Program-made: the position numbers and the translations under genes | Shown: in pieces, positions 2,961 to 61,831 of the stretch | How positions within the stretch are numbered: position 1 is the stretch's first letter | Layout of the letters: each line of letters begins with the position of its first letter | Assembly: GCA_036172665.1 (NCBI GenBank) | Contig: CM069872.1 | Coordinates: 57,708,101-57,772,100 of the forward strand | Length of the DNA stretch: 64,000 nucleotides | Origin: Prosopocoilus inquinatus | Taxonomy: Eukaryota > Arthropoda > Insecta > Coleoptera > Lucanidae | Reading direction: 5' to 3' | The notes under the pieces: generated by a model | What the model was told of the DNA's origin: nothing | The model's database searches: none | What the model saw: only the letters and a program-made list of their open reading frames with translations

Positions 2961-3459
2961 ACAACCCTGGTGCCTATTCAAAATAAATTCAGCATTGCCA
3001 ACTCAAACAGCCATTTTTTTTAAGGCTGCAACGCCATCTGTTGCGTTTTCTTTTAAATAATCTGTTGATCACGTGCAAGGCAAATAATTTCTTGTTTTGT
3101 CATTTTTCGTTCCCTCTTTTTTATTTATGCCTAAATTGCGTACTCACATCGATTGCCTCTTGTTTCCATCAATTTCTTTTTTGGACATTGCCGTTGAATA
3201 TTTCCTAAAATTTCGTCCGTTTGTTTTTGTCCTTTTCTTCCGCTTGTCCTTCTTGTTTATTAACTTCGCAACGTTGTCTTTTGTTTTTAGTTCCGATGCT
3301 AACTTCACGTGTTGCAATCGTAAACCAGCCACACCGTTCTCTCATCGCTCGAACCGAGGTCTGAATAGATCGGTCGATTTTGAAAAAAACCCCGGGCACG
3401 ACAATCCTAAACCAAAAATTCGTTTTCTCATTTTCCCATCGACGACTTTAAAAGCCGAT

Positions 3460-9400: not shown

Positions 9401-9660
9401 AAGAAATTGCTTTGATTGGTCTGCTGTGGTTTAAACAGGTAGAGGGCAACGAATGAGTTTTGCTCGATGACTACACGGACTGAGGTCGAAAAGAAATCTA
9501 TCCAAAACTGAACCAATCTGAAACTAGCTGGCACGTGTTCAAGAAATTGCTTTGATTGGTCTGTCTAAATAGCCAATGAATAAGTTTTGCTGCTCACGGA
9601 TTGAGATGGAAAACAAATCCATCCACAACTGAAGCAGTTAAAGTAAGTAGTTGGAAAGTG
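3460..9660. repeat. Satellite array of ~140-bp monomers with higher-order structure
   Basis: About 6.2 kb built from diverged monomers. Each monomer carries 'ctacacggactgaggtcga', 'aatctatcc', 'aactgaaccaatct', 'agctggaacgtggtcaag' and 'ttgctttgattggtct'. The spacing of the 'gattggtct' block is usually 135-170 bases, with occasional ~195-base compound units that contain 'ggaacaaaaacaaaa'. Higher-order units are visible: about 8041-8810 is repeated at about 8811-9580 with a constant 770-base offset, and many blocks recur at an offset of 2770 (for example 4861 and 7631). The left part (3460-4150) is the most diverged, as expected of an array edge. Almost every monomer has a CCAAT word facing an ATTGG word. 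No coding potential is seen. Confidence 0.95.
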
Positions 9661-20085: not shown

Positions 20086-22732
20086 AATATAAAAAAATAT
20101 TTACAAAAAATCAGTTTTTGCTAGAGCATTATACCTGATAAGACCATTCATCACACATAACGTCGCGCGCTCTCTATTGTAGTCCGACGTATTACACGAA
20201 CACCACACTATAGCCCAGCGCTCTATATTGTAGTCAGGCTTGTGCTTATACAACGGTACGTGTTGTTAATACGTTTATTATAAAGTTATTTCATTGTTAT
20301 TATTGAAAACGAAACCTCTACGCCCACATGCTTAAATGCAATCGAATGTCCTTTTTTTTTGGAAGTTTCACCTTCGACTTTTTGAAATTTGTGTTTGATT
20401 TTTTGAATTTTAAGTTGTCTTGAATTGAATTAGGATAGCTTGGTTTGGATTTAATTCTAATTTAAGCTTACAAAATATTTACAAAAAATCAGTTTTTGCT
20501 AGAGCATTATACCTAACAAATCATTCATCACACATAACGTCGCGCGCTCTCTATTGTAGTCCGACGTATTACACGAACACCACACTATAGCCCAGCGCTC
20601 TATATTGTAGTCAGGCTTGTGCTTATACAACGGTACGTGTTGTTAATACGTTTATTATAAAGTTATTTCATTGTTATTATTGAAAACGAAACCTCTACGC
20701 CCACATGCTTAAATGCAATCGAATGTCCTTTTTTTTTGGAAGTTTCACCTTCGACTTTTTGAAATTTGTGTTTGATTTTTCGAATTTTAAGTTGTCTTGA
20801 ATTGAATTAGGATAGCTTGGTTTGGATTTAATTCTAATTTAAGCTTACAAAATATTTACAAACAATCAGTTTTTGCTAGAGCATTACACCTAACAAATCA
20901 TTCATCACACATAACGTCGCGCGCTCTCTATTGTAGTCCGACGTATTACACGAACACAACACTATAGCCCAGCGCTCTATATTGTAGTCAGGCTTGTGCT
21001 TATACAGCGGTACGTGTTGTTAATACGTTTATTATAAAGTTATTTCATTGTTATTATTGAAAACGAAACCTCTACGCCCACATGCTTAAATGGAATCGAT
21101 TGTCCTTTTTTTTTGGAAGTTTCACCTTCGACTTTTTGAAATTTGTGTTTGATTTTTTGAATTTTAACTTGTCTTGAATTGAATTAGGATAGCTTGGTTT
21201 GGATTTAATTCTAATTTAAGCTTACAAAATATTTACAAAAAATCAGTTTTTGCTAGAGCATTACACCTAACAAACCATTCATCACACATAACGTCGCGCG
21301 CTCTCTATTGTAGTCCGACGTATTACACGACCACAACACTATAGCCCAGCGCTCTATATTGTAGTCAGGCTTGTGCTTATACAGCGGTACGTGTTGTTAA
21401 TACGTTTATTATAAAGTTATTTCATTGTTATTATTGAAAACGAAACCTCTACGCCCACATGCTTAAATGCAATCGAATGTCCTTTTTTTTGGAAGTTTCA
21501 CCTTCGACTTTTTGAAATTTGTGTTTGATTTTTCGAATTTTAAGTTGTCTTGAATTGAATTAGGATAGCTTGGTTTGGATTTAATTCTAATTTAAGCTTA
21601 CAAAATATTTACAAACAATCAGTTTTTGCTAGAGCATTACACCTAACAAATCATTCATCATACATAACGTCGCGCGCTCTCTATTGTAGTCCGACGTATT
21701 ACACGAACACAACACTATAGCCCAGCGCTCTATATTGTAGTCAGGCTTGTGCTTATACAGCGGTACGTGTTGTTATTACGTTTATTATAAAGTTATTTCA
21801 TTGTTATTATTGAAAACGAAACCTCTATGCCCACATGCTTAAATGCAATCGAATGTCCTTTTTTTTTTGGAAGTTTCACCTTCGACTTTTTGAAATTTGT
21901 GTTTGATTTTTTGAATTTTAATTTGTCTTGAATTGAATTAGGATAGCTTGGTTTGGATTTAATTCTAATTTAAGCTTACAAAATATTTACAAAAAATCAG
22001 TTTTTGCTAGAGCATTACACCTAACAAATCATTCATCACACATAACGTTGCGCGCTCTCTATTGTAGTCCGACGTATTACACGAACACAACACTATAGCC
22101 CAGCGCTCTATATTGTAGTCAGGCTTGTGCTTATACGGCGGTACGTGTTGTTAATACGTTTATTATAAAGTTATTTCATTGTTATTATTGAAGACGAAAC
22201 CTCTACGCCCACATGCTTAAATGCAATCGAATGTCCTTTTTTTTTTGGAAGTTTCACCTTCGACTTTTTGAAATTTGTGTTTGATTTTTTGAATTTTAAG
22301 TTGTCTTGAATTGAATTAGGATAGCTTGGTTTGGATTTAATTCTAATTTAAGCTTACAAAATATTTACAAAAAATCAGTTTTTGCTAGAGCATTATACCT
22401 AACAAATCATTCATCACACATAACGTCGCGCGCTCTCTATTGTAGTCCGACGTATTACACGAACACACCACTATAGCCCAGCGCTCTATATTGTAGTCAG
22501 GCTTGTGCTTATACAACGGTACGTGTTGTTAATACGTTTATTATAAAGTTATTTCATTGTTATTATTGAAGACGAAACCTCTACGCCCACATGCTTAAAT
22601 GCAATCGAATGTCCTTTTTTTTTGGAAGTTTCACCTTCGACTTTTTGAAATTTGTGTTTGATTTTTTGAATTTTAATCTGTCTTGAATTAAATTAGGTTA
22701 GCTTGGTTTGGATTTAATTCTAATTTAAGCTT
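20086..22732. repeat. 377-bp tandem array, seven copies
   Basis: The block 'cgtcgcgcgctctctattgt' starts at 20161, 20539, 20915, 21292, 21669, 22046 (with one change) and 22424, so the period is 376-378. Units differ by a few substitutions and by the length of one poly-T run. Each unit has two related sub-blocks, 'gcgctctctattgtagtccg' and 'gcgctctatattgtagtcag', about 55 bases apart, pointing to an older internal duplication. Array ends are sharp at both sides. No open frame of note. Confidence 0.97.
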
Positions 22733-26607: not shown

Positions 26608-27999
26608 CAGAGGCGGCTCGTCGGGGTGGGCACTGTCCACCCTCTCCTATGAAGTTGCACCTCGTCCGGGCAACCCCGAAAAACGAATTTGTTTGGAAAA
26701 TTCACCCACTTTCCCTTTTGTCGATTAGTCGATTGTTTTTTTGGTAAACGGCGTTGGAAAGCTGAGGAAAAGCTCTGTAAATCCCCCACTTAAATCGAAC
26801 TCAAAAATTACAAGCGCAATCGTGAGGGGAGGGAGAGACGTTCATCTAATCGGGCAAATAAAAAACGCGGGGTCGCTTTCGAATTTTGATTGTAATCCAA
26901 CAATGCGTTCGTCGATTGTTTCTTTGGTGAAGGGCGTCGGAAAGCCCAGAAAAAGCTCTGTAAATCCCGCTTATAAATTGAGTTCGAAAATTACAAGCGC
27001 GATCGCCAGGGGAGGGAGAGACGTTCATCTAATCGGGCAAATAAAAAACGCGGCGTCGCTTTCGAATTTTGATTGTAATCCAACAATGCGTTCGTCGATT
27101 GTTTTTTGGTAAAGGGCGTCGGAAAGCAAAGAAAAAGCTCTGTAAATCCCGCGTCTAAATTGAGTTCGAAAATTACAAGCGCGATCGCCAGGGGAGGGAG
27201 AGACGTTCATCTAATCGGGCAAATAAAAAACGCGGCGTCGCTTTCGAATTTTGATTGTAATCCAACAATGCGTTCGTCGATTGTTTTTTGGTAAAAGGCG
27301 TCGGAAAGCCCAGAAAAAGCTCTGTAAATCCCGCGTCTAAATTGAGTTCGAAAATTACAAGCGCGATCGCCAGGGGAGGGAGAGACGTTCATCTAATCGG
27401 GCAAATAAAAAACGCGGCGTCGCTTTCGAATTTTGATTGTAATTCAACAATGCGTTCGTCGATTGTTTTTTGGTAAAAGGCGTCGGAAAGCCCAGAAAAA
27501 GCTTTGTAAATCCCGCGTCTAAATTGAGTTCGAAAATTACAAGCGCGATCGCCAGGGGAGGGAGAGACGTTCATCTAATCGGGCAAATAAAAAACGCGGC
27601 GTCGCTTTTGAATTTTGATTGTAATCCAACAATGCGTTCGTCGCTTGTTTTTTTGGTAAAGGGCGTCGGAAAGCCCAGAAAAACCTCTGTAAATCCCCCG
27701 CTTAAATTTGATTGGAAAATTACAAGCGCAATCGCGAGGGGAGGGAGAGACGTTCGGTTAATTGAGCAAATACGCGTTGTTTTTGAAGAATTTTGATTGT
27801 ATCTCGAGAACGCGTTCGTCGATTGTTTTTTTTTTTGGATAAAAAGCGTCTGAGAGCTGAGGAAAAAAATATCTCCCACTTAAATTTAGATAAAAAATTA
27901 TAAGCCCCGAGAAAAACGAATTTATTTGGAAAATGCTTCCACTTTCCCTTTTGCGTCGGTTGTTGCCCACCCGCAGTAAATCAAAACGAGCCGCCACTG
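26608..27999. mobile_element. Non-autonomous hAT-type transposon, 1392 bp
   Basis: Left end CAGAGGCGGCTCGT and right end ACGAGCCGCCACTG are inverted repeats matching at 13 of 14 positions. Directly outside lie identical 8-bp copies ATTCCAGC (26600-26607 and 28000-28007). CAG...CTG ends with an 8-bp target duplication are the signature of the hAT superfamily. Further inward the ends share 'gggtgggca' versus 'tgcccaccc', and the direct block 'aaaacgaattt(g/a)tttggaaaa'. The interior is almost entirely a 182-bp tandem array, and no transposase remains. Confidence 0.88.
26735..27860. repeat. 182-bp tandem array inside the hAT element, about six copies
   Basis: The block 'gggagggagagacgttc' falls near 26826, 27011, 27192, 27374, 27556 and 27739. 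Middle units are nearly identical, while the outer ones are diverged. Each unit contains 'gcgatcgc', 'taatcgggcaaataaaaaac' and 'aacaatgcgttcgtcgattg'. The repeated ~60-codon frames on both strands follow from the near-identical units and shift between units, so no protein is called. Confidence 0.95.
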
Positions 28000-29557: not shown

Positions 29558-30957
29558 AGCACCTTCAAGGTTATGTGAATACTTCAAATAACCAAACGTA
29601 ATTCAAAGTCGAAGGTCATTTGAATTAAATTAAAATGAAAGGCGAATAACGGGGCCCGTATGTCGTTTACGAAACGTGTTAACGAAATTTTGCAATCGTT
29701 ATTAATAAGTGGGGGGGGGAAGAGTGATTGCTCTCGTCGTTATTTACAAACACACACGAAAATTATTCGCAGCACATTCAAGGTTATTTAAATACGTCAA
29801 ATAATCAATAACGTAAATCAACGTCGAAGATCCTTCGAATTAAATTAAAATGAAAAGCGAATAACGGAGCCCGTATGTCGTTTACGAAACGTGTTAACGA
29901 AATTTTGCAATCGTTATTAATAAGTGGGGGGGGGGGAAGAGTTATTGCTCTCGTCGTTATTTACAAACACACACGAAAATTATTCGCAGCACATTCAAGG
30001 TTATTTAAATACGTCAAATAATCAATAACGTAAATCAACGTCGAAGCTCCTTCGAATTAAATTAAAATGAAAAGCGAATAACGGAGCCCGTATGTCGTTT
30101 ACGAAACGTGTTAACGAAATTTTGCAATCGTTACTAATAAGTGGGGGGGGGGGAAGAGTTATTGCTCTCGTCGTTATTTACAAACACACACGAAAATTAT
30201 TCGCAGCACCTTCAAGGTTATTTAAATACGTCAAATAATCAATAACGTAAATCAACGTCGAAGATCCTTCGAATTAAATTAAAATGAAAAGCGAATAACG
30301 GGGCCCGTATGTCGTTTACGAAACGTGTTAACGAAATTTTGCAATCGTTACTAATAAGTGGGGGGGGAAGAGTTATTGCTCTCGTCGTTATTTACAAACA
30401 CACACGAAAATTATTCGCAGCACCTTCAAGGTTATTTAAATACGTCAAATAATCGAACGTAAATCAACGTCGAAGCTCCTTCGAATTAAATTAAAATGAA
30501 AAGCGAATAACGGAGCCCGTATGTCGTTTACGAAACGTGTTAACGAAATTTTGCAATCGTTACTAATAAGTGGGGGGGGAAGAGTTATTGCTCTCGTCGT
30601 TATTTACAAACACACACGAAAATTATTCGCAGCACCTTCAAGGTTATTTAAATACGTCAAATAATCAATAACGTAAATCAACGTCGAAGCTCCTTCGAAT
30701 TAAATTAAAATGAAAAGCGAATAACGGAGCCCGTATGTCGTTTACGAAACGTGTTAACGAAATTTTGCAATCGTTACTAATAAGTGGGGGGGGGGGGGGG
30801 AGAGTTATTGCTCTCGTCGTTATTTACAAACACACACGAAAATTATTCGCAGCACCTTCAAGGTTATTTAAATACGTCAAATAATCAATAACGTAAATCA
30901 ACGTCGAAGATCCTTCGAATTAAATTAAAATGAAAAGCGAGTAACGGGACCCGTATT
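29558..30957. repeat. 212-220-bp tandem array with poly-G tracts
   Basis: Units contain 'cttcaaggttatttaaatac', 'aattaaattaaaatgaaaag', 'cccgtatgtcgtttacgaaa', 'ttgcaatcgttactaataag' then a G-run, 'agagttattgctctcgtcgt' and 'acaaacacacacgaaaatta'. The 'cccgta' word sits at 29655, 29870, 30087, 30304, 30516, 30730 and 30950. G-runs measure 9, 11, 11, 8, 8 and 15 and account for much of the length variation. The first and last units are incomplete. Confidence 0.96.
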
Positions 30958-34689: not shown

Positions 34690-37600
34690 CAGAATTCTTT
34701 TTAGTAACTACAGTTCGGAATCGCATATTTCGACGTCATCATGTGGGCGGAGCACTACATGCAACAGGTGCTGAGCTTAATTAAAAACAAGCCCATCAAG
34801 CAACCTTTAACTTTTTCGTAACTTAGATGTGTTTGTTTTAGAACAAAACTCAGTGTTACCACCACCTCAGTATCCTTGAAAACCTATGTGTTTTATTGCC
34901 AACTTACTATCGAGATTTACCTAAAAAAAATTTAATAACCACAGTTCGGAATCGCATATTTCGACGTCATCATATGGGCGGATTAATCAATTGAATTGAA
35001 ATCAAGTCCATCACGTAACCTTTAACTTTTTCGGAACGTAGATATGTTTGTTTTACAACAAAACTCAGTGTTACCACCACCTCAGTATCCTTGAAAACCT
35101 ATGTGTTTTATTGCCAACTTACTATCGAGATTTACCTAAAAAAATTTAATAACCACAGTTCGGAATCGCGTATTTCGACGTCATCATGTGGGCGGATTAA
35201 TCAATTGAATTGAAATCAAGTCCATCACGTATCCTTTAACTTTTTCGGAACGTAGATATGTTTGTTTTACAACAAAACTCAGTGTTACCACCACCTCAGT
35301 ATCCTTGAAAACCTATGTGTTTTATTGCCAACTTACTATCGAGATTTACCTAAAAAAATTTAATAACCACAGTTCGGAATCGCGTATTTCAACGTCATCA
35401 TGTGGGCGGATTAATCAATTGAATTGAAATCAAGTCCATCAAGTAACCTTTAAGTTTTTCGGAACGTAGATATGTTTGTTTTACAACAAAACTCAGTGTT
35501 ACCACCACCTCAGTATCCTTGAAAACCTATGTGTTTTATTGCCAACTTACTATCGAGATTTGCCTAAAAAAATTTTAATAACCACAGTTCGGAATCGTGT
35601 ATTTCGACGTCATCATGTGGGCGGATTAATCAATTGGATTGAAATCAAGTCCATCACGTAACCTTTAACTTTTTCGGAACGTAGATATGTTTGTTTTAGA
35701 ACAAAACTCAGTGTTACCACCACCTCAGTATCCTTGAAAACCTATGTGTTTTATTGCCAACTTACTATCAAGATTTGCCTAAAAAAATTTTAATAACCAC
35801 AGTTCGGAATCGCGTATTTCGACGTCATCATGTGGGCGGATTAATCAATTGAATTGAAATCAAGTCCATCACGTAACCTTTAACTTTTTCGGAACGTAGA
35901 TATGTTTGTTTTACAACAAAACTCAGTGTTACCACCACCTCAGTATCCTTGAAAACACTATGTGTTTTATTGCCAACTTACTATCGAGATTTGCCTAAAA
36001 AAAATTTAATAACCACAGTTCGGAATCGCGTATTTCGACGTCATCATGTGGGCAGATTAATCAATTGAATTGAAATCAAGTCCATCACGTAACCTTTAAC
36101 TTTCTCGGAACGTAGATATGTTTGTTTTACAACAAAACTCAGTGTTACCACCACCTCAGTATCCTTGAAAACACTATGTGTTTTATTGCCAACTTACTAT
36201 TGAGATTTGCCTAAAAAAATTTAATAACCACAGTTCGGAATCGCGTATTTCGACGTCATCATGTGGGCGGATTAATCAATTGCATTGAAATCAAGTCCAT
36301 CACGTAACCTTTAAGTTTTTCGGAACGTAGATATGTTTGTTTTAGAACAAAACTCAGTGTTACCACCACCTCAGTATCCTTGAAAACCTATGTGTTTTAT
36401 TGCCAACTTACCATCGAGATTTGCCTAAAAAAATTTTAATAACCACAGTTCGGAATCGCGTATTTCGACGTCATCATGTGGGCGGATTAATCAATTGGAT
36501 TGAAATCAAGTCCATCACGTAACCTTTAACTTTTTCGGAACGTAGATATGTTTGTTTTACAACAAAACTCAGTGTTACCACCACCTCAGTATCCTTGAAA
36601 ACACTATGTGTTTTATTGCCAACTTACTATCGAGATTTGCCTAAAAAAAATTTAATAACCACAGTTCGGAATCGCGTATTTCGACGTCATCATGTGGGCA
36701 GATTAATCAATTGAATTGAAATCAAGTCCATCACGTAACCTTTAACTTTCTCGGAACGTAGATATGTTTGTTTTACAACAAAACTCAGTGTTACCACCAC
36801 CTCAGTATCCTTGAAAACACTATGTGTTTTATTGCCAACTTACTATTGAGATTTGCCTAAAAAAATTTAATAACCACAGTTCGGAATCGCGTATTTCGAC
36901 GTCATCATGTGGGCGGATTAATCAATTGCATTGAAATCAAGTCCATCACGTAACCTTTAAGTTTTTCGGAACGTAGATATGTTTGTTTTAGAACAAAACT
37001 CAGTGTTACCACCACCTCAGTATCCTTGAAAACCTATGTGTTTTATTGCCAACTTACCATCGAGATTTGCCTAAAAAAATTTTAATAACCACAGTTCGGA
37101 ATCGCGTATTTCGACGTCATCATGTGAGCGGATTAATCAATTGGATTGAAATCAAGTCCATCACGTAACCTTTAACTTTTTCGGAACGTAGATATGTTTG
37201 TTTTAGAACAAAACTCAGTGTTACCACCACCTCAGTATCCTTGAAAACACTATGTGTTTTATTGCCAACTTACTATTGAGATTTGCCTAAAAAAATTTTA
37301 ATAACCACAGTTCGGAATCGCGTATTTCGACGTCATCATGTGGGCGGATTAATCAATTGAAGTGAAATCAAGTCCATCACGTAACCTTTAACTTTTTCGG
37401 AACGTAGATATGTTTGTTTTACAACAAAACTCAGTGTTACCACCACCTCAGTATCCTTGAAAACCTTTGTGTTTTATTGCCAACTTACTATCGAGATTTA
37501 CCTAAATTTCTTTTTAATAACCATAGTTCGGAATCGCGTATTTCGACGTCATCATGTGGGCGGATTAATCAATTGAAGTGAAATCAAGTCCATCAAGTAA

Positions 37601-37725
37601 CCTTTAACTCTTTCATAACTTAGATGTGCTTTTCGTAACTCAGTGTTACCAACCCAGCGGCGCTCAGTATCCTTGAAAATGTACGTGCTTTTTTACCGAC
37701 TTACTGTTGCAGTTTACTCGGAAAA
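34690..37725. repeat. 215-bp tandem array, 14 copies
   Basis: The word 'gttcgg' starts at 34713, 34944, 35158, 35372, 35587, 35802, 36018, 36233, 36448, 36664, 36879, 37094, 37310 and 37526, so the period is 214-216. Each unit carries 'ggaatcgcgtatttcgacgt', 'catcatgtgggcggattaat', 'caagtccatcacgtaacctt' and 'ccaccacctcagtatccttg'. Private variants such as 'gggcagatta' recur at an offset of 646 (36051 and 36697), showing a three-unit higher-order block. The first and last units are diverged. A single relic lies near 13445. Confidence 0.97.
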
Positions 37726-38500: not shown

Positions 38501-38699
38501 GTTTGTCAAACCATCTATCGTCTTTTGTTTATGTTTTTTTTGATGGATGACAGAAACCAGCTTTCTCTAGCTAGTAATTTTAGTAGCCTTCTGAAAACGT
38601 GGGGGCCAGTGTTGCCAATTCTAAATACGTTTAAGCAGTACATTGAAATACTTAAAACGGATTCGTTCATTCGTTTTTGGCGTTTGTTTCTGACGAAAT

Positions 38700-39530
38700 C
38701 TTTCGTCTGCTTCTAGTGAGATTTCAGTGATTTTTGAAGCTAAACGCGAAAGTCTATTGGCAACACTGTCAGAATGCGCGTTTAATTCGATATTCGTCCG
38801 GAAGCGGAAACAACACGGTTCGATCTTTCGGCATTTGTTCTGGCGAAAGCTTCATTCTGCTTCTGGTGACATTTCAGTGATATTTGAAGCTAAACGCGAA
38901 AGTCTATTGGCAACACTGTCAGTATGCGCGTTTAATTCGATATTCGTCCGGAAGCGGAAACAACACGGTTCGATCTTTCGACATTTGTTCTGGCGAAAGC
39001 GTCATTCTGCTTCTGGTGACATTTCAGTGATATTTGAAGCTAAACGCGAAAGTCTATTGGCAACACTGTCAGAATGCGCGTTTAATTCGATATTCGTCCG
39101 GAAGCGGAAACAACACGGTTCGATCTTTCGACATTTGTTCTGGTGAAAGCTTCATTCTGCTTCTGGTGACATTTCAGTGATATTTGAAGCTAAACGCGAA
39201 AGTCTATTGGTAACACTGTCAGAATGCGCGTTTAATTCGATATTCGTCCGGAAGCGGAAACAACACGGTTCGATCTTTCGACATTTGTTCTGGCGAAAGC
39301 TTCATTCTGCTTCTGGTGACATTTCAGTGATATTTGAAGCTAAACGCGAAAGTCTATTGGCAACACTGTCAGAATGCGCGTTTAATTCGATATTCGTCCG
39401 GAAGCGGAAACAACACGGTTCGATCTTTCGACATTTGTTCTGGCGAAAGCTTCATTCTGCTTCTGGTGACATTTCAGTGATATCTGAAGCTAAACGCGAA
39501 AGTCTATTGGCAACACTGTCAGAACGAGTA
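38700..39530 (+). repeat. 150-bp tandem array, six copies, in-frame
   Basis: The block ending 'cgaaagtctattgg' finishes at 38760, 38910, 39060, 39210, 39360 and 39510, an exact 150-base period. Copies are nearly identical. Because 150 is a multiple of three, a plus-strand frame of 50 residues per unit stays open from 38727 through to 39551, broken only by one TGA at 39144-39146, where a C-to-T change altered 'tggcgaaagc' to 'tggtgaaagc'. The 50-residue unit is basic (RKRKQHGS is visible), with no signal peptide or known domain. I annotate a repeat and not a gene; coding remains possible. Confidence 0.9.
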
Positions 39531-41638: not shown

Positions 41639-42126
41639 CAATTGAAGACCATAACTTCAAAAGGGTCTAAGCGCCAAAAAATAAAAAAAATATATTTTCG
41701 CAGCAAATGGATCTATGGGCAAATCCCAACGTCACGCAAAATGGTCTATGTACTTGCGGTTAAATAAAAAGTGTAATAAATGAATCATAGTTGGCGATAT
41801 TTGTATGTGCGCTTAAGATTTATGCCCGGTTGCACCAATATTTTAAGTAAAACTTAAGTGTAAGTCATGTTTAGAACATGACATTTATGCATGGTGAGTA
41901 TAATGTCATTCACATTCTGACTGACACTTAAACTTCATTTAAGTATCTTGTTAGAATGTGTCCGACATTTTGTTGAACTTACATAAAATGTCATGTTCTA
42001 AACACGACTTAAATTTAAGCTCTGCTTAAAACATTGGTGCAACCGGCCATTAGTAAATCAGTTTTCTTTATAGCTTCTAAACATGTTTTTGGCACTTGGA
42101 CCCTTTTGAAGTTATGGTCTTCAATT
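41639..42126. mobile_element. 488-bp inverted-repeat element hosting a second MITE
   Basis: Outer arms: 'caattgaagaccataacttc' with 'aaaagggtctaagcgcc' on the left, and the complement 'gaagttatggtcttcaatt' preceded by 'ggcacttggaccctt' on the right. Inside at 41825-42047 lies a separate inverted-repeat element with ends 'gcccggttgcaccaat' and 'attggtgcaaccggcc' and a second inner palindrome ('aagtcatgtttagaacatga' versus 'tcatgttctaaacacgactt'). The arrangement is best read as one small transposon inserted in another. Confidence 0.75.
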
Positions 42127-42923
42127 ACAGTTTACTGTAATTTTTCTTTCTCCAAAATGGTAGCTAGGTTGCGTTCAGATTTATAAGGTAGAATATGATC
42201 TGGGCGTGCAATCGTATCTTCGTCATGTTTATGATTATTGACGTACATGTCTTGAGTCTCATTCATCCGTTTCAAAAAGCCTAGTGTTTACGCCGTTGCC
42301 ATGGCAACGAACGAACTTTTCGCATCCCATTTCTTGCGCAGGGTGTGAAAGGTTCGGCGGTTGCCATGACAACGACGTAACTTGAACGAGACGCAAGATA
42401 TGACAATAGTGATGAGCGACAAAGATACGATTGCCCGCCCAAATTACACCCTATCTTATAAATCTGAACGCAACCCTTACCGTTTAAATACGACTTCACA
42501 GCTGATACTTGAATATTAACATTAAACAATATTTTTAAGTATCAGCTGTGAAGTCGTATTTAAACGGTAAGGGTTGCGTTCAGATTTATATGATAGGGTG
42601 TAATTTGGGCGGGCAATCGTATCTTTGTCGCTCATCACTATTGTCATATCTTGCGTCTCGTTCAAGTTACGTCGTTGTCATGGCAACCGCCGAACTTTTC
42701 ACACCCTGCGCAAGAAATGGGATGCGAAAAGTTCGTTCGTTGCCATGGCAACGGCGTAAACACGAGGCTTTTTGAAACGGATGAATGAGACTCAAGATAT
42801 GTGCGTCAATAATCATAAACATGACGAAGATACGATTGCACGCCCAGATCATATTCTACCTTATAAATCTGAACGCAACCTAGCTACCATTTTGGAGAAA
42901 GAAAAATTACAGGAAACTGTAAT
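42127..42923. mobile_element. ~800-bp near-perfect palindrome made of two mirrored MITEs
   Basis: The arms of about 380 bases pair almost throughout around a ~26-base AT-rich centre at 42515-42540. Each arm is itself an inverted-repeat element, beginning 'ggttgcgttcagatttataa' and ending with 'tataaatctgaacgcaacc', at about 42165-42475 and 42570-42880. So two copies of one MITE sit head to head. The outer termini 'ttacag...ctgtaa' match the MITE at 16988-17174. Frames of 61-82 codons on both strands mirror each other and are not genes. Confidence 0.9.
42295..42308. promoter_or_regulatory. RFX X-box-like palindrome
   Basis: GTTGCCATGGCAAC fits the X-box consensus GTNRCC-N(0-3)-RGYAAC bound by RFX-family winged-helix factors. 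Further copies: 42360-42373 (GTTGCCATGACAAC), 42674-42687 (GTTGTCATGGCAAC) and 42739-42752 (GTTGCCATGGCAAC). The match is seen in the sequence; binding is inference. Confidence 0.5.
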
Positions 42924-51886: not shown

Positions 51887-54770
51887 GAATTTTGTCTCCG
51901 GGAATCCCAATTGACTTCCCTTACCAAAAACACGAACATTTTATAGTTCTCTGCCTTACCGACGTTGTCTACCTTATCGACTCAGACGACCGACCGATTG
52001 ATTGTCTGACATTTGTACGTTTACAACGACGATCGTTTTTTTTCTTTCATCAAAAAGCAAAAACTCGAAACAAAACACAATCGTCCCAAAGCGAAAACCG
52101 ATTTAATCGAAAATTGACAATTTTGACGGTTTCATCTGTAAAGCCGGACGTACTCTCATTTATCAGTAGAAACAATTTATTTTTCTACTTAAATAGAAAA
52201 CGTAGAATTTACGCCGCCGTACATAGTGCCATCTATTGTCCAAAACTGAAAGCTATTTTAATCGAATTTCCTGCAGCACAGGATTTCATGTTCACGCCGA
52301 CGTCACTCATTTCTCGGTAGGAACAGTTTCTTTTTCTACTTAAATAGAAAACGTAGAATTTACGCCGCCGTACAGAGTGCCATCTATTGTCCAAAACTGA
52401 AAGCTATTTTAATCGAATTTCCTGCAGCACAGGATTTCATGTTCACGCCGACGTCACTCATTTCTCGGTAGGAACAGTTTCTTTTTCTACTTAAATAGAA
52501 AACGTAGGATTTACGCCGCCGTACAGAGCGCCATCTATTGTCCAAAACTGAAAGCTATTTTAATCGAATTTCCTGCAGCACAGGATTTCATGTTCACGCC
52601 GACGTCACTCATTTCTCGGTAGGAACAGTTTCTTTTTCTACTTAAATAGAAAACGTAGAATTTACGCCGCCGTACAGAGTGCCATCTATTGTCCAAAACT
52701 GAAAGCTATTTTAATCGAATTTCCTGCAGCACAGGATTTCATGTTCACGCCGACGTCACTCATTTCTCGGTAGGAACAGTTTCTTTTCTACTTAAATAGA
52801 AAACGTAGGATTTACGCCGCCGTACAGAGCGCCATCTACAGTCCAAAAGTGAAAGCTATTTTAATCGAATTTCCTGCAGCACAGGATTTCACGTTCACGC
52901 CGACGCGACGTCACGCGACGTTCTCAGTAAAATCCTAACTTTGCAGTTTGATTTCGATTTCAAAGTTAAATCTGAAAACTAATTTAAAGCAAAAACTCGA
53001 CGAAAACAAAAGACAATCGTCCCGAAGTGAAAACTAATTTTCAATCGAAAATCAAAAAATGCCAAAGCAGTTTCATCTATAAATATAAACGTACTCTCAT
53101 CCCTCAGTTGAAACAATTTTTATTCAAATTAAATCGAAAACGTAGAATCTACTGAGCGCCATCTACTGTCCAAAATTGAAAGCTGTTTTAATCTAATTTC
53201 TTGCAGCACAGGATATCACGTTCACGCCGACGCGACGTCGCGCGACGTTCTCAGCAAAATCCTAACTTTGCAGTTTGATTTCGATTTCAAAGTTAAATCT
53301 GAAAACTAATTTAAAGCAAAAACTCGCCGAAAACGAAAGACAATCGTCCGGAAGTGAAAACTAATTTTCAATCGAAAATCAAAAAATGCCAAAGCAGTTT
53401 CATCTATAAATATAAACGTACTCTCATCCCTCAGTTGAAACAATTTTTATTCAAATTAAATCGAAAACGTAGAATCTACTGAGCGCCATCTATTGTCCAA
53501 AATTGAAAGCTATTTTAATCGAATTTTCTGCCGCACAGGAATTCACGTTCACGCCGACGCGACGTCGCGCGACTTTCTCAGCAAAATCCTAACTTTGCAG
53601 TTTGATTTCGATTTCAAAGTTAAATCTGAAAACTAATTTAAAACAAAAACTCGCCGAAAACGAAAGACAATCGTCCGGAAGTGAAAACTAATTTTCAATC
53701 GAAAATCAAAAAATGCCAACGCAGTTTCATCTATAAATATAAACGTACTCTCATCCCTTAGTTGAAACAATTTTTATTCTAATTAAATCGAAAACGAAGA
53801 ATCTACTGAGCGCCATCTATTGTCCAAAATTGAAAGCTATTTTAATCGAATTTTCTGAAGCACAGGATTTCACGTTCACGCCGACGCGACGCCGCGCGAC
53901 GTTCTCAGTAAAATCCTAACTTTGCAGTTTGATTTCGATTTCAAAGTTAAATCTGAAAACTAATTTAAAACAAAAACTCGCCGAAAACGAAAGACAATCG
54001 TCCGGAAGTGAAAACTAATTTTCAATCGAAAATCAAAAAATGCCAACGCAGTTTCATCTATAAATATAATCTCGGCAGAAACAATTTTTATTCTAATTAA
54101 ATCGAAAACGTAGAATCTGCTGAGCGCCATCTGTTGTCCGAAAATGAAAGCTATTCTAATCGAATTTCCCGTAACAGCGTTTCGTGTTCGCGCCGACGCA
54201 CGACGCGACGTTCTCGGTAAAATCCCGGCGATTTTAATTTCGAAGTTAAATTTGAAAATAAAAAATCATTCTCTAAACATCAAGTCAAAGCGCCATCTCC
54301 CGATCAAAAACAGGAAACGAAACGATTTTTTAATCGATTTTCACTCCCGCTGGATGGATGGCGTTCTCGGCAAAACTTCGCGCAATGATTTTAATTATTG
54401 CAAAATTAAATTCATTTATTATTCAAAGACTGATCTGGAATTATTATACGCAGCGCCATCTTTGGATCATAAATTGAAGCTGTACTATTTTAATTCCAAA
54501 TAGAACTGATATTTTCAGCCGGTACTTCGTGTTCTACTTTTGAATGATTGTTTTAAGCGAATTGTTTAGAGCGCGATCTCTTCGCACGTTTATTGAAGTT
54601 CAAAAACGCGATTTCTCAATCAAAAGAGCGTATTTTTTTTTTAATTCAGATTTGTCAAGTTGGAGTTTTATGAATTTTACCTCCGGGAATCTTAATTAAC
54701 CCCCTTTAGTAAAAAAAGTTCTCTGTTGTCTTACCGACTTTATGTACTTTATCGACTTGCAGACAATTTT
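51887..54770. repeat. 151/327-bp nested tandem array with flanking direct repeats
   Basis: A 327-bp unit is repeated (CTCF-like word at 53156, 53483, 53810, 54124), with further diverged units to 54470. Within the left part a shortened 151-bp version has been amplified separately (words at 52226, 52377, 52528, 52679, 52829). Shared blocks are 'gaaaacgtagaat', 'gccatctattgtccaaaa', 'gaaagctattttaatcgaat' and 'cacgttcacgccgacg'. The whole array is bracketed by diverged ~100-base direct repeats (51887-51994 and 54669-54768), which both carry 'ctccgggaatc', 'agttctctg', 'cttaccgac' and 'tatcgact'. Confidence 0.93.
52226..54461 (-). promoter_or_regulatory. CTCF-like word series, array part
   Basis: The plus strand shows GCGCCATCT (minus strand AGATGGCGC) at 52528, 52829, 53156, 53483, 53810, 54124, 54290 and 54453, plus the variant GTGCCATCT at 52226, 52377 and 52679. 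AGATGGCGC fits the AGRKGGCRS half of the CTCF core. All face the same way. Binding is inferred; other zinc-finger proteins may read the same word. Confidence 0.5.
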
Positions 54771-56199
54771 TCTCTTGTAAGAAGATTTTTCCGGTTCAAC
54801 AGGTGCTTGCTGGTGGTTTTTCTCATATTTTGGTGTTGCCTAAATAATATTTTTAATCGAAATTTAATCGTTCGTACAAAAATTTATAGACATATACGGG
54901 GTGTCTCAGATTGAGTAGGCAACCAAGGGTAACTCTCTTATTAGTGGAGGTAGAGATTTGGTTAATTGGGCAATGTTTTGTAGTTTTGTGTGCCGGTTGA
55001 GATGCCGCAGAGAAAATTCGAAAATTCCGGATAGTTCCGATTTTATCGCAGAAAAAACGGAAAATCGCCATTTTCTTTAATCTCTAATAGCATCGTGGTT
55101 ATAAGAAATATGAAAAAAAGTTTGATATGAAAGTTACTAGGCTTGATAAAGTGCGGCTGAAAGTTAAGTCAAAATAATATTCAAGATGGCGGCTTTCAAG
55201 ATATTGAATTATTTGGATAATTGGAGGCCATATTGGATTTTTATAAGATTTATGGCCGCTTTCATAATCAGACTTTAACAAGAAGTTTTAATTTAAAGTC
55301 ACTTTAAGAATAGGGAAACAAATGTACAGTTGTACAATGTTTAAAATTATTTAATTTAATTTTATCTCTTCCTTTTTTTTTTCTTATCGAATGGTTTCGA
55401 AAATTCCCATTTCCTTCCATTCCCATGCCTGACGTGCTTGCGTTTGGTTTCTGTTTTTGTTTTTTCGTTCGCAATTAACGTTGTTGTTGTATTTTTAGCT
55501 TAGCAATTGAAAGGGTCATGAATTAAACATTCGTAATCGATTCCAAAGAATGATCTGGGTGGGAAGAAGCGACGGATAGCCTGCTATTAAGCCCACGAAC
55601 GGTTTCGTGCTTCTGTCAATCAAAAGGAACGTCGAAACGTCGAGTCACGTCCCTAACCGACCCGAGCCAAGAAGGAAGGAAGAAAGAAAGAAAGAAAGAA
55701 GGCCGATCTCAGCGCGCTCGAAGTTCACACGTCGCGTCGGAATCAAATTGCTCTTTTCCACCAACTATACATACCTAAGTACGCATTTTTTTGTGTGAGA
55801 GGGAAGTGAGGTGCAGTGAGGAGTGGTAACTCCACCACCGTTGGCGTATAGATGACGGCCAGCGGTTGAGGAGTTCCTCGGCCTCGCAGCGAGTCTCCTG
55901 TAACTTAAAAAGAAAAGCTAAAACACGATTGCAATAATCAATAATCGAATAATTCGCGAAAAACAGTAACCAACAGATGGCGCTTGCAATACGGAAAACA
56001 AGAGCTGTCACTAATGTCATTCAGCATAACCTATTTCATTGGATCCGTCAATGCTTCCGTTGGTATTATTATTATGATGTGGTGTACGTCATTCTAAAAA
56101 TACGAGAGCGTCACCAAACTCGCAAACAAACATTTCGATTGCATAGTTTTACTGACTTTTTGTAGGTTAACCGAATGTCATTGCATGCCATACTTGTCT
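54771..56199. other. Spacer with scattered ATGGCGG words
   Basis: At 54896 'acggggtgtctcagattga' resembles the start of a DNA transposon, but no matching end was found. 'aagatggcggc', a YY1/Pho-type word, lies at 55184-55194. A (GAAA)n run lies near 55680-55700. AGATGGCGC on the plus strand at 55975-55983 is the only CTCF-like word of this region in the opposite direction. No gene supported. Confidence 0.45.
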
Positions 56200-56800
56200 A
56201 TCTTCTACGTAAACATGTCAACTCATAACAACTTTTTCGTTAAAAGTCGGCCATATTTGATTACAGAACGGCGGAGAAGTAACAAACGCGTTCTTCTCTT
56301 CGAGACGTTTCATTTGATATGTCACATGACATACTCAACTTCATCGAAAACATTTTCGATCACTATGACATACCGACATTCCGTCAAAAAACAGCCACGC
56401 TTGATTTATACAACTTCTTCGTTGAAAGTCGGCCATACTTGATTCTAGAATGGCGGGGAAGTCCTGTTCGAGACGTTTCATTTGATACGTCACATACTAT
56501 GTTAATCTTCATCGCAAACATTTTCGATCACTATGATGTATTGAAATTCCATCAAAAAACAGCCACGTTCGATTTAAACATGGCGGAGAGGTGACAATCG
56601 CGTTCGTTTTTTCGAGGCGATTCAATTGATGCGTCACACGACATGCTTAGGCCACTGAGGAAGCATTTTCGATCATAACGTCGCGCCATCTTGCTTCCTT
56701 CCGTAGTGACATTTCATCAGAAATCAACCTTACATGTCATTCTAAAATGGCGGTGAGCTAACAGTCGCGTTCGCCTCCCCGAGGTGCTTTATTTGAGACG
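56200..56800. repeat. ~150-185-bp diverged tandem repeat, four copies
   Basis: Blocks recurring are 'cgttgaaagtcggccatact', 'atggcgg(a/g)(g)ag', 'cgagacgtttcatttgat' (near 56298 and 56477; diverged near 56612 and 56778), 'gtcacatgacat', 'cattttcgatcactatgac' and 'aaaaacagccacg'. Later copies are progressively diverged. Frames of 85-91 codons run through it without any recognisable domain. Confidence 0.8.
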
Positions 56801-57131
56801 TCACACCTTTAAACATGTTTTTATTAGAGCGTTGCCGTCGTCTTGCAATTGTCGCCTTCTTGGATTTCATGATGGCGACGTACTGGCATACTTTGTTTAA
56901 GAACTGTCATTTTGTGATCCTTGTGTCAAGAAGTAAATTGAAAGCAATGATAACAAAAGATGTTCGAATATTCTAATCGATTTTTGATCGAAAAATAAAA
57001 CACAAAGACTTCGAAGCAGATGTTTTTGTGTCGAAACGAAAGGTCCTTAATTTTTTGGAAAAATTTGGAATTTAAAAAAGAAATGAAAAAGATTTCGTTT
57101 AATATGAAAACTCTTTTGAAACTTCTTACTA

Positions 57132-57600
57132 ACTTTTGAAATTTATTCCTAAGCGCCATCTAGCGTTGGAAAAATATTATTCTCTCCTTTATGAAGTGGC
57201 GCCATCTGCCGATAAAAAAGAAACATTTTTTCATTATATTTTGTTGTAATTTTTACTAATTTTTGGAATTTATTCCTGAGCGCCATCTAGCGTTGAAATG
57301 TCGTTCCCTCCTTTTTGAAGTAGCGCCATCTGACGATAAAAAATCACTTTAACATTTTCTCATTACATTTTGTAATTCGAAGCAAATCAATCCTCTCGTT
57401 TCTTTGATTTTCTTTTGAAACGTTATTCATTCAACTTAGCGCCATCTAGCCTCGAAAGATCGTATCGTTTTCCAAAAATAATTTTCTTAATTTTATTCAG
57501 CGCCATCGAACAGGACACAATATTATTAACTAAATTAATTTTAAGGGAAATTTTCTCTCGATGTTTAATTATATTTGGCGCCACCTAGAAGCAAAAGAAT
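57132..57600 (-). promoter_or_regulatory. Dense CTCF-like word cluster
   Basis: GCGCCATCT occurs at 57153, 57199, 57280, 57323 and 57439, a truncated GCGCCATCG at 57500 and GCGCCACCT at 57578 (minus strand AGGTGGCGC, the best fit to the CTCF core). Sites at 57153, 57280 and 57439 continue as CTAGATGGCGC on the minus strand (57280 and 57153 as CGCTAGATGGCGC). A 127-base segment carrying two sites is duplicated (57132-57258 and 57259-57385). Confidence 0.55.
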
Positions 57601-59519
57601 TTTTTTTCTTTTAGAAATTTTATTCATTTCGAAAAGTCGGTTTTGTTTAACATAAAAGAAACAAACATTTGTTTCATACTCGTCCGTAAATTTATTTCAC
57701 AGCTGACCGTGTTTTGTTTTTCTATGAAAAAAAAAAATCGATGATAAATCCAACGTCTTTTGTTATCGTTTTTAATTTTTTCCAAATCGCCCTTCAACGC
57801 TTGCTTCGAACTTCGAAATCACCAAATGAGAGATCGGCGGAGCGCACGAAGAAGAAATTTGCTTTTATGAAAGTGCGCCCTCTGTCGGTCCGGATCCAGG
57901 TTTTTAAATAAATCCGAGATTTCATCTGCACTCTTCCGGGACGCATCCTTATTTCAGGGCCCTTCGGAAAACTTCCGCTAGATGTCGGTCGGCCGCCCCG
58001 TGATTTTCTCCGAGTAGATTCATCGAGCACTATGGGTGCTTTCTTTCGCTTAAAAGTTTGAAACGCGTTTCGAATAGTTCGGACCTGAATTTCGTAGTTG
58101 TTGCAAAAAAAAAAAAAACGTTTGACCTGAATTTTTGATTAACAGTTCGTTCGTAAATGACCATAGTTCAGTCCAAACAAGTTTAAAAAATCGAGAGATT
58201 CGAAGAGAAGAATCAAAACACGTTTGGATCACGATTTTGTGAGCCAAAAGAAAGCACCTTTCGTTGCCCTCGCATTAATCATCCTGCTCTGCGAATTAAA
58301 TTAATTAAATGCAAATAATCCGTCGCGCTTATTACATTAATTAATAAATTGAGTGCACGCAAGGAGATTGCATTCGAAAAGAAAAAAAAACAAGAAAGAA
58401 AACACTGTCTACAGTACACGCAAATCAGCGATGCCAACAGGGTTGTAAAAATCCCCCTAGATCTCCCTCCAATCAGAGCTGCGTTAGCGTTGGCGCCGGG
58501 CGTACACCGGCGATTACCGCTATTCCGATTTCAATCACACGGACGTTTAGGTTAGGAAAAATTTTAGAATCGTCACTCTGAATTTGCTGGTGTCGTGTGG
58601 GATAGGGGGGGCGGGGGGGAGATTACATCAAAAGATCAAAAGTAGTAGATACCTAAATCTGTTCTCTTTCTCCCCGCTGAAGAAATAGTTTCAAGCTAAA
58701 CAAAACAAAACAGTTATGAACTTGAATATTTATGCTTAGCGCGGTAGGTGTTGATAATTAGCAATTAACATAAAAACAATGGGATAATTATTGGCTGACA
58801 GGAAATACATACTTATACAGGTACTCTGAGAGAGAAAGCAAAATAAAAAATGCAGCTGCTTGTTTGTGGAAATAACCTATTGAGTAATATTGATCGTTTT
58901 TTTTTTTCTAAAAAGTTTACACGCGAGGTACGATTTTTAATTAAAACACGATTAGGTAGATGTCCTTGCGTTATTCTTGTACGGGCATGGAAATAATATA
59001 AAGTAATAAAATAATATAAATAATAAAAAGAAAAAAAAGATTGAAGCGATTGAAATTTTTTAAATTGTTTGGTGTTGATGCGTTCAAACCTTCGCTTGCG
59101 TTGGACTCTCGTTTAATGAAGGGGGCGGTGACTTTTATTTTACATAATAATTTAATTAATCGAAGCAGGCGCCAATTTTTCTTCTTTTTTTAAGCGTCGA
59201 CCCCTTATACATAGAAAAAAAGCAAGTACAGGGTTTTCTTTTCTTTTTTTTTAAATTTTTGCACCCTATCTAGGGGGCTTATTTTAGGAGCTAGAGAAAA
59301 TCTTTGAACGCAAAAGTCGTGGGGTTTTATGTCTATTATCTTTTAGAGTTATCAGGAGAAACAAAAGCGCATCGCAAATTGGAGAAAAAAACACAATATT
59401 TGTTTTTTTTTTTTTTAATGGAACAGCCTATATAATGTTTGCTAAGATGACAGATCATTTTTTCCTGATTTCAAACATATATATAATATGTTGACATTTG
59501 GAAGAGCCGTTTGTGAGAT
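57601..59519. other. Spacer without recognisable genes
   Basis: AT-rich DNA with homopolymers. A GC-richer segment at 57820-58030 and a G-rich run at 58605-58620 stand out. Frames of 65-78 codons show nothing recognisable. Confidence 0.4.
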
Positions 59520-60320
59520 GTTTGAGGTTAGAATATCAATAAATTAATACACATTTAAAATATCAAGGCGGCCTGGAATTTTGTTTTTTTTTATTATTAT
59601 TAATTCATTGTGTAGGGTTTCCAGTATTCGAATTTCTATTGTTTTTTTGCTAAGCTAACTGAAGCAACTGTCTACTGTTACGCCATCTGTTTTTTTTTTC
59701 TCTGAAGAAAAGAGTGAGAAATTTGAGGTTAGAATATCAATAAATTAATAAATATTTAAAATATCAAGGCGGCTAGGAATTCTGTGTTTTTTTTTTTATT
59801 ATTATTAATTAATTGTGTAGGGTTTTCAGTATTCGAATTTCTACTGTTTTTCTTTGCTAAGCTAACTGAAACAACTGTCTACTGTTACGCCATCTGTTTT
59901 TTTTTCTCTGAAGAAAAGAGTGAGAAATTTGAGGTTAGAATATCAATAAATTAATAAATATTTAAAATATCAAGACGGCCTGGAATTTTGTTTTTTTTAT
60001 TATTATTAATTCATTGTGTAGGGTTTCCAGTATTCGAATTTCTATTGTTTTTTTGCTAAGCTAACTGAAACAACTGTCTACAGTTACGCCATCTGTTTTT
60101 CTTTTTTTTTCTGAAGAAGAGAGTGGCAAATTTGAGGTTAGAATATTAATAAATTAATAAATATTTAAAATATCAAGGCGGCTAGGAATTCTGTGTTTTT
60201 TTTTTTATTATTATTAATTAATTGTGTAGGGTTTTCAGTATTCGAATTTCTACTGTTTTTTTGCTAAGCTAACTGAAACAACTGTCTACAGTTACGCCAT
60301 CTGTTTTTTTTTCTCTGAAG
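59520..60320. repeat. ~205-bp tandem array, four copies
   Basis: The block 'gaggttagaatat' occurs at about 59523, 59723, 59930 and 60134. Units share 'aaatatttaaaatatcaagg', 'gtgtagggtt(t/c)(t)ccagtattcg', 'gctaagctaactgaa' and 'actgttacgccatctgtttt' or a close variant. Units one and three, and two and four, resemble each other most ('ggcctggaattttg' versus 'ggctaggaattctg'), so a two-unit higher-order block is likely. Each unit holds CGCCATCTG, a CTCF-like word lacking the leading G. Confidence 0.93.
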
Positions 60321-61831
60321 AAAAGAATGGCAAATTCGATTGGAATTCGAGCGTCTTTTGTCATCGCTCTTAATTTATTTTCTGTCGCAGAAGTAAAAAC
60401 GAAAGGTTTCGTTCAGTCAAGTCGACCGGCGAAACATGTAAACGTCATTCAATTGTTACGCAATCGATTCTCTTTTGTTATTTTTCTTTTTTTTTTTTTT
60501 GTTAATGAAGAAAAATTCGTGCTTTCGATCGAAACACGTATTTTTCTTTCATTACTCGATTATGTTCGTTATTCCTTTCATTTTACCTTTTTCTTTATTT
60601 GAAATAGGTTTCGCCAAATTTTGAGGTTATGTTCAACTGAATTGGGAATTGAGCCGTAATTCTTAAAGATGTTGTTACCGTTTCGCCTGAAACGAGGAAG
60701 CTTAAGGAACGAAAGTGAAAAGAACCGCCCAAACGAATTAGTTTTTTTTTTTTTTGAGAACCAGAAGCTTGGCTCGCCTCAGATCGCGATTAGACAATTA
60801 GAGAACAAAAAAATTGCTTGTTTTTCATACCTTTCAATCCACCCAATCGGATTAACTTTAATGACTTGCTGCCAAATAACTTATTTGAAGGCTGTAGGGC
60901 TGCGAAGGGCGACCCCATAACCTACCTTCCGAGTCGTTAATAAAGTACAGCAGAAATCGACTCTGCGAAAAAGGTTAAAGGTAAGGGTAAGGGTAACTGA
61001 ACGAAAAAGAAGAAAGAATTGAAGACCACGCATAGTAAAGCAAGGTCAATACTCGGTAGGAAACTAGAACGAAAAGACGTCACTAAAAGCGAACACGCTG
61101 CGAAGATGAAGGATTTCAGGCAAATTTTCCGAAGCAAGAAAAAAGGAAAAGGTTAAAAGATTAGGATTAGGAGAAAGTCGAAAAGAAAAAGCTTCAAAAA
61201 AAAAGTGAAGTCCGAGGAACCATCCAAACGAATACATTTTTTTTAAGACAAAGATTTTTTTACCATCTCATTTCACAACGTACAATGAGTAGAGAAGAGA
61301 CAATTTAACAAAAACAAAAAAAAAAAAAATAGAAGATCTAATGAATGGAAGATGCAATAATTATAAAACAAAACAAAACAGAAAACGAAAACAATTTATA
61401 AACGAGATTAAAAAATATAACAAAACAATTTAAATATAAAGATAAAAAAAAATTCAAGCCTCGATTTTATTTAGTACTGCGACGAACTAAGGAAACCTTA
61501 TCTTATCAAGCTGACGCGTCCGTGTGTAACTCCGCAACATAAAGTGCGTACAGTGATTAAGTGCTTAATGAGAAAGCAGGAAGTGGTTTGACATTTCTGC
61601 TCGGCTGGATTTTATTCATATAATTTGTAATAACACGCAAAGTTCACGCAAGTCCGTGCCATACAATCTCTTCCTTAATGGCCGCAATTCCCATTCAATT
61701 CCGTTCGTTATTATTACTTCTTTGCATTCGAATCTCGCGCTTTTGAAATTCCGATTAAAGCAGTTTGCGTTTGTTGTACAGTCGAAAATAAATAAAGAAG
61801 AAAGAAAAAAATAAATAAATTGAGGCCTAAC
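60321..61831. other. Spacer with an old ~500-bp duplication
   Basis: The blocks at 60720-60750 and 61220-61245 ('accgcccaaacgaatt' and 'accatccaaacgaata', each followed by poly-T) and at 60970 and 61150 ('ggttaaaggtaagggtaagg' and 'ggttaaaagattaggatta') suggest an old duplication. No gene in the plus strand was recognised. Confidence 0.4.

Follow-up and report, generated by a model that had tools for sequence, protein, structure and literature searches.

A cluster of CTCF-like sites around mir-2765 in the beetle Prosopocoilus inquinatus, a candidate insulator grown in part by tandem duplication

Introduction

CTCF sites carried in tandem repeats are already known from mammals. The DXZ4 macrosatellite of the mammalian X chromosome is described in PMC3491370 as a tandem repeat bearing such sites, while a human tRNA variable-number tandem repeat at 1q23.3 is presented in PMC4041453 as having a unit that binds CTCF and is implicated as a boundary. 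Clustered CTCF sites are also described at mammalian boundaries of topologically associating domains (TADs), where, according to PMC6945661, sites of old and of recent origin build up near one another. Here we analyse 64 kb of the beetle Prosopocoilus inquinatus (the window; all densities, expectations and backgrounds refer to these 64,000 bases), in which a 5.7-kb cluster of CTCF-like matches surrounds a mir-2765 precursor. Judged from the letters of the window, this clustering is strongly non-random, and the region probably represents, if only by a small preponderance, a homotypic CTCF-site cluster that works as an insulator or chromatin boundary at the mir-2765 locus.

Results

Word counts were determined over the whole window, and they agree exactly, in number and in coordinates, with those of a preliminary description of this DNA, which had listed 14, three and one words in the same direction and a single opposed one.

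52528, 52829, 53156, 53483, 53810, 54124, 54290: exact GCGCCATCT, plus-strand reading, first seven of 14
54453, 56683, 57153, 57199, 57280, 57323, 57439: exact GCGCCATCT, plus-strand reading, last seven of 14
52226, 52377, 52679: GTGCCATCT (minus reading AGATGGCAC), three copies
57578: GCGCCACCT (minus reading AGGTGGCGC), one copy
55975: AGATGGCGC read on the plus strand, opposed to the rest, one copy

Counted on both strands, the exact 9-mer has 15 copies, none of them in the window outside the 52-58 kb region, whereas dinucleotide shuffles lead one to expect 0.14 in 64 kb and 0.04 in 6 kb. Nine of the 18 same-direction words fall in two overlapping tandem arrays (151-bp x 5.0 and 327-bp x 4.3), so that the raw word count overstates their independence. 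When the arrays are masked to their first unit, all exact left-array words are lost and nine words are left, against 0.14 expected, and AGATGGCGC then ranks 13th among all 9-mers by p-value, preceded only by A-rich, AAT, CA and AAG low-complexity words. Poisson probabilities for the word are 1e-7, 1e-5 and 8e-4 when its copies are treated as four, three and two groups, respectively.

A CTCF-like identity had been proposed for these words, and it gains from the consensus CNNNAGNNGGCGC, given for fly CTCF and used for honey bee in PMC8336396, which cites Van Bortle 2012. This consensus is longer than the 9-mer word, containing an extra C four bases upstream (the distal C), and the agreement therefore includes a position outside the word originally chosen. 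Its 14 matches in the window, 13 minus and one plus, compare with 0.32 expected per 64 kb and all lie within 52.5-57.9 kb, bearing out the clustering within the window.

52528, 52829, 53156, 53483, 53810, 54124, 54290, 54453, 57153, 57199, 57280, 57323, 57875: minus-strand matches to CNNNAGNNGGCGC
55971: plus-strand match to CNNNAGNNGGCGC

Six of these matches are in the tandem array and four in a duplicated pair, and the Poisson probability for the consensus in 6 kb is 3e-8 as four groups, 4e-6 as three and 4e-4 as two. The distal C constitutes a separate test, because it was not part of how the words were first found. It is present in nine of nine left-array copies and, with 57875 excluded from the count as itself found by consensus, in six of nine sequence contexts (p 0.0019 at the window G frequency; p 0.03 at a deliberately high G frequency of 0.31). 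Variants AGGTGGCGC and AGAGGGCGC differ at columns left free by the consensus. According to PMC7880997, an insulator reporter lost its activity when the fly CTCF motif ATGTCAGAGGGCGCT was mutated, and CAGAGGGCGC is common to this motif and site 57875. CTCF motifs also rank among the top two by occupancy in the honey bee footprints from the assay for transposase-accessible chromatin (ATAC) described in PMC9723623.

Scoring relied on the published consensus and on self-trained matrices; the latter are partly circular, and only matches outside the training set count, with both matrix thresholds corresponding to ~1 chance match per 64 kb. The matrix trained without the left array recovered all nine left copies, three of which (those with GGCAC) were barely above threshold, and produced one match outside 52-58 kb.

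The weaker forms listed in the preliminary description, namely ACGCCATCT at 3031, GCACCATCT near 48555 and a series of CAGATGGCGT at 59.6-60.3 kb, are real, although they are not the only ones, 14 further one-mismatch forms of the 9-mer (10 forward, 4 in reverse direction) lying outside 52-58 kb. The CAGATGGCGT series consists of four copies in a 201-bp repeat x 4 at 59513-60336, a weaker related form in which both the final C of the word and the distal C are missing.

The proposal that the stack had been partly propagated by tandem duplication is supported by two arrays, of 151-bp and 327-bp units, and by a ~125-bp pair. The parts of the cluster are as follows (TRF, Tandem Repeats Finder).

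52147..52905, minus: 151-bp tandem array x 5.0 with one CTCF-like word per unit (TRF, word count, alignment)
52823..54225, minus: 327-bp tandem array x 4.3, whose unit is akin to the 151-bp one around the site (TRF)
54290..54302, minus: consensus site CGGGAGATGGCGC, flanks weakly like the array unit
54453..54465, minus: consensus site CCAAAGATGGCGC, flanks weakly like the array unit
55810-55893, plus: mir-2765 precursor (Rfam RF03691, 60.9 bits vs gathering 58, E 5.3e-11)
55971..55983, plus: sole plus-strand consensus site CAACAGATGGCGC, 78 bases beyond the precursor end
56228..56806, plus: separate diverged tandem repeat with ATGGCGG words, beside the microRNA (self-alignment, word count)
57123..57373, minus: ~125-bp unit x 2 with two consensus sites per copy (self-alignment, 81.9%)
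57439..57590, minus: weaker sites, with AGATGGCGC at 57439 and AGGTGGCGC at 57578, both without the distal C
57875..57887, minus: consensus site CGACAGAGGGCGC with core AGAGGGCGC, matched as GCGCCCTCTGTCG (consensus scan)

The words of the 151-bp array are AGATGGCAC at 52226, 52377 and 52679 and AGATGGCGC at 52528 and 52829, and those of the 327-bp array at 53156, 53483, 53810 and 54124 match CNNNAGNNGGCGC, as does 52829, which is common to the 151-bp array. Sites 57153 and 57199 belong to one ~125-bp copy and 57280 and 57323 to the other. Word 56683, a minus-strand AGATGGCGC that lacks the distal C, lies within the diverged repeat at 56228..56806; the ATGGCGG words of this repeat, which we take to be a YY1/Pho-like core, mark possible YY1/Pho-type sites. 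A degenerate GCGCCATCG occurs at 57500, within the weak-site group; this site, the one at 57875 (beyond the coordinates of the preliminary description) and mir-2765 between the two halves were absent from that description. Stretches 51887-51987 and 54672-54764, flanking the left array, are ~68% alike by self-alignment, which suggests an older, larger duplication around it.

The two site groups of the cluster are separated by a gap, and the mir-2765 precursor lies within it. The minus strand of the locus reaches 38.9 bits against RF03691, and the hairpin fold has a z-score of -2.88, only 2 of 200 shuffles folding as well. Searches for mir-2765 in viral and in prokaryote contig collections gave 0 matches in each. 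PMC8139948 gives Coleoptera, Lepidoptera and Hymenoptera as orders with miR-2765, so that the match by itself points to an insect as the most likely source. As regards the layout, leftward consensus sites extend up to 54465 and are followed by a 1.3-kb gap to mir-2765; the rightward site comes 78 bases after the precursor, and leftward consensus sites begin again 1.2 kb further, with the incomplete leftward word 56683 inside this second gap.

The window as a whole is AT-rich (37% GC) and CpG-rich (CpG observed/expected 1.3-2.1 in 27 of 32 two-kb blocks), a CpG excess that, taken alone, would fit Hymenoptera, and tandem arrays with periods of ~60 and above occupy 18,602 of its 64,000 bases (29%). 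Arrays of differing 150-377 bp units with 94-97% matches are found at 20094-22732, 26728-27755, 29558-30956, 34779-37625 and 38683-39524, and these, with no recognised genes there, constitute a duplication-prone region. At 4195-9563, tandem units of 140 bp and 64 bp form a complex with CpG observed/expected of 0.77-0.79, far below most of the window, possibly reflecting a different origin or methylation. At 42124-42923 a near-perfect palindrome has two 393-nt arms, 98% complementary and separated by a 14-nt gap, with smaller inverted repeats inside each arm; it could be a fold-back element or give rise to a long RNA hairpin. A Pfam scan of 20 of the 439 stop-to-stop frames (at least 50 amino acids) found no family above cut-off, five weak matches from four of the scanned frames each falling below the curated cut-off, and a tRNA scan of the window with bacterial settings found none.

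Discussion

The preferred explanation for the region is an insulator or boundary that would work through the number of its sites. Each AGATGGCGC core would be bound by CTCF zinc fingers, in most cases together with the upstream C, and many sites within 5.4 kb would give high combined occupancy; the element would therefore shield the microRNA and the flank on one side from regulation on the opposite side, and single copies might be gained or lost without loss of function. The left half would have expanded as a unit containing a site (151 and 327 bp) was duplicated in tandem, and an earlier duplication of a unit with two sites would account for part of the right half. CTCF binding, insulation and any effect on mir-2765 are thus what we infer from the sites, their clustering in the window, the array structure and the microRNA match.

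Several observations weigh against this explanation. Within the 13-mer of the nine aligned left-array copies, three of five N columns vary (in 1, 2 and 1 copies), and one of eight fixed columns also varies, in three copies, with no clear difference between the two classes; the core CpG is lost in three of the nine (C to T, giving GGCAC). The flanks of these copies vary in 75 of 154 columns, many of which are gap columns between two unit types, and the left array is not old enough for constraint to be visible. The distal C is missing at 56683, 57439 and 57578 and, once 54290 and 54453 are merged into the left array, its presence falls to four of seven contexts (p 0.025); given these three of nine contexts and the functional fly motif ATGTCAGAGGGCGCT, which also lacks it, the distal C is not essential. 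The matrix trained without the right half recovered only five of eight right sites, two of them above a stricter 0.1-per-64-kb threshold, missed the same three sites that lack the distal C, and gave three extra matches outside 52-58 kb and one inside (54569). Furthermore, duplication here needs no selection, because 29% of the window is tandem array, and the sites may not all be independent. In a flank comparison of 11 sites (the left array represented by a single copy and the two B sites by one; 55 pairs, 100 shuffles), similarity was clear only for 57153/57280, with five more pairs (left-57439, 57439-57578, left-54453, left-57280 and 54290-57323) at 0 or 1/100 shuffles, the resulting six of 55 being above chance and leaving the independence of the sites uncertain. 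In a second flank test, the left array reached 2/300 against 54290 and 21/300 against 54453. Flanks of sites other than 57153/57280 resemble one another weakly.

These flank similarities, together with the 18,602 bases of tandem array, are what would be expected if a chance word had been amplified by neutral duplication in a duplication-prone region, old diverged copies accounting for most of the other sites and nothing binding to them, an account that we regard as somewhat unlikely. Under it, three or four groups that fit a consensus fixed in advance would be improbable within 6 kb (the Poisson values of 4e-6 and 3e-8 given above), two groups less so (4e-4), and if the lone sites are old copies, their motif has outlived its flanks, itself suggesting constraint. 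In the right ~125-bp pair, 25 of 26 motif columns are identical vs 80 of 101 flank columns (p=0.044). The lone sites would thus be either very old copies in which the motif outlived the flanks or separate births, and both suggest, although neither proves, that the motif matters. Neutral duplication accounts for the arrays, and perhaps for some lone sites. That the word might instead be a dispersed repeat, or common genome-wide, so that the cluster is nothing special, appears the most improbable of the alternatives considered, since the remaining 58 kb of the window contain none of the 14 consensus matches and no single flanking element is common to the 11 sites tested.

A Polycomb-type silencer or a Dpp-responsive element, formed by another factor with an overlapping core, is quite improbable, if less so than a dispersed repeat. 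The cores in question are GCCAT and AARATGGCGGC for YY1/Pho and TGGCGYY for Brinker, and Polycomb response elements combine Pho sites with GAGAG sites. Such words are indeed abundant in 52-58 kb (GCCAT 31 vs 5.6 expected, ATGGCGG 4 vs 0.27, TGGCGYY 19 vs 1.7), and 12 of the 31 GCCAT lie outside CTCF-type words, several of them in the 56.2-56.8 kb repeat with ATGGCGG; Brinker, moreover, shares the top footprint occupancy with CTCF in the honey bee ATAC data of PMC9723623. However, 18 of the 19 Brinker words and 19 of the 31 GCCAT fall in CTCF-type words, neither core accounts for the distal C or for the AG before the core, GCCAT is broken by the variants AGGTGGCGC and AGAGGGCGC, and GAGAG is near the window average (6 and 10 per 4 kb vs a mean of 6.4). 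A mixed element is possible, considering the 12 GCCAT outside CTCF-type words.

The parallel orientation of the sites had also been advanced as evidence for directed loop extrusion, a claim that is weakly supported. Agreement in direction of 13 of 14 sites does not amount to 13 independent events, because tandem duplication copies orientation; by contexts, nine of ten share an orientation (p=0.02), and stricter merging gives seven of eight (p=0.07) or six of seven (p=0.125), the parallelism thus coming mostly from duplication. In flies, CTCF-dependent boundaries are described in PMC7880997 as lacking clear directionality, with cohesin showing no specific colocalisation with CTCF there, which weakens the loop-extrusion claim, and PMC10003631 names Drosophila and Anopheles as species without a CTCF role in loop formation. 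Pairing of fly boundaries is nonetheless reported in PMC11305674 as typically orientation-dependent, which by analogy could leave another route for direction to matter.

On direction at fly boundaries, PMC7880997 and PMC11305674 point different ways. If the insulator explanation were true, 13 parallel sites and one opposed site beside a conserved microRNA would offer a direct test of CTCF site number and direction in insects, and the array would be an example, from outside mammals, of an insulator enlarged by repeat amplification. Among the matches listed in a literature search on CTCF arrays, clusters and motifs in insects, which left most subscription journals outside, titles and starts of abstracts revealed no tandem CTCF array reported from an insect; a search for the literal words gave, among the matches listed, titles suggesting fortuitous sequence matches, for example to primers.

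Fly CTCF insulator elements as a rule contain from one to a few sites, and we know of no tandem amplification of comparable size for those of Drosophila, whose reporter fragments have the same core as the beetle sites. Sites at mammalian TAD boundaries come from chromatin immunoprecipitation sequencing (ChIP-seq), whereas those described here are sequence matches, six of 14 from a tandem array and four from a duplicated pair. The 1q23.3 repeat differs in its 7.3-kb GC-rich units of tRNA repeat. That the locus is an insect counterpart of DXZ4 seems unlikely, slightly more so than neutral duplication. In such a case the boundary would adjoin a conserved microRNA, its CTCF sites would have multiplied by tandem duplication in separate repeat units and been kept as their flanks decayed, the microRNA would lie in the gap between divergent sites, and both site number and direction would matter. 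DXZ4 is a large array, homogeneous in primates and located on the X, for which CTCF binding has been shown, whereas the beetle cluster comprises smaller repeats of unrelated units with predicted sites; to the CTCF sites in tandem repeats described for DXZ4 (PMC3491370) and 1q23.3 (PMC4041453), it adds a candidate case.

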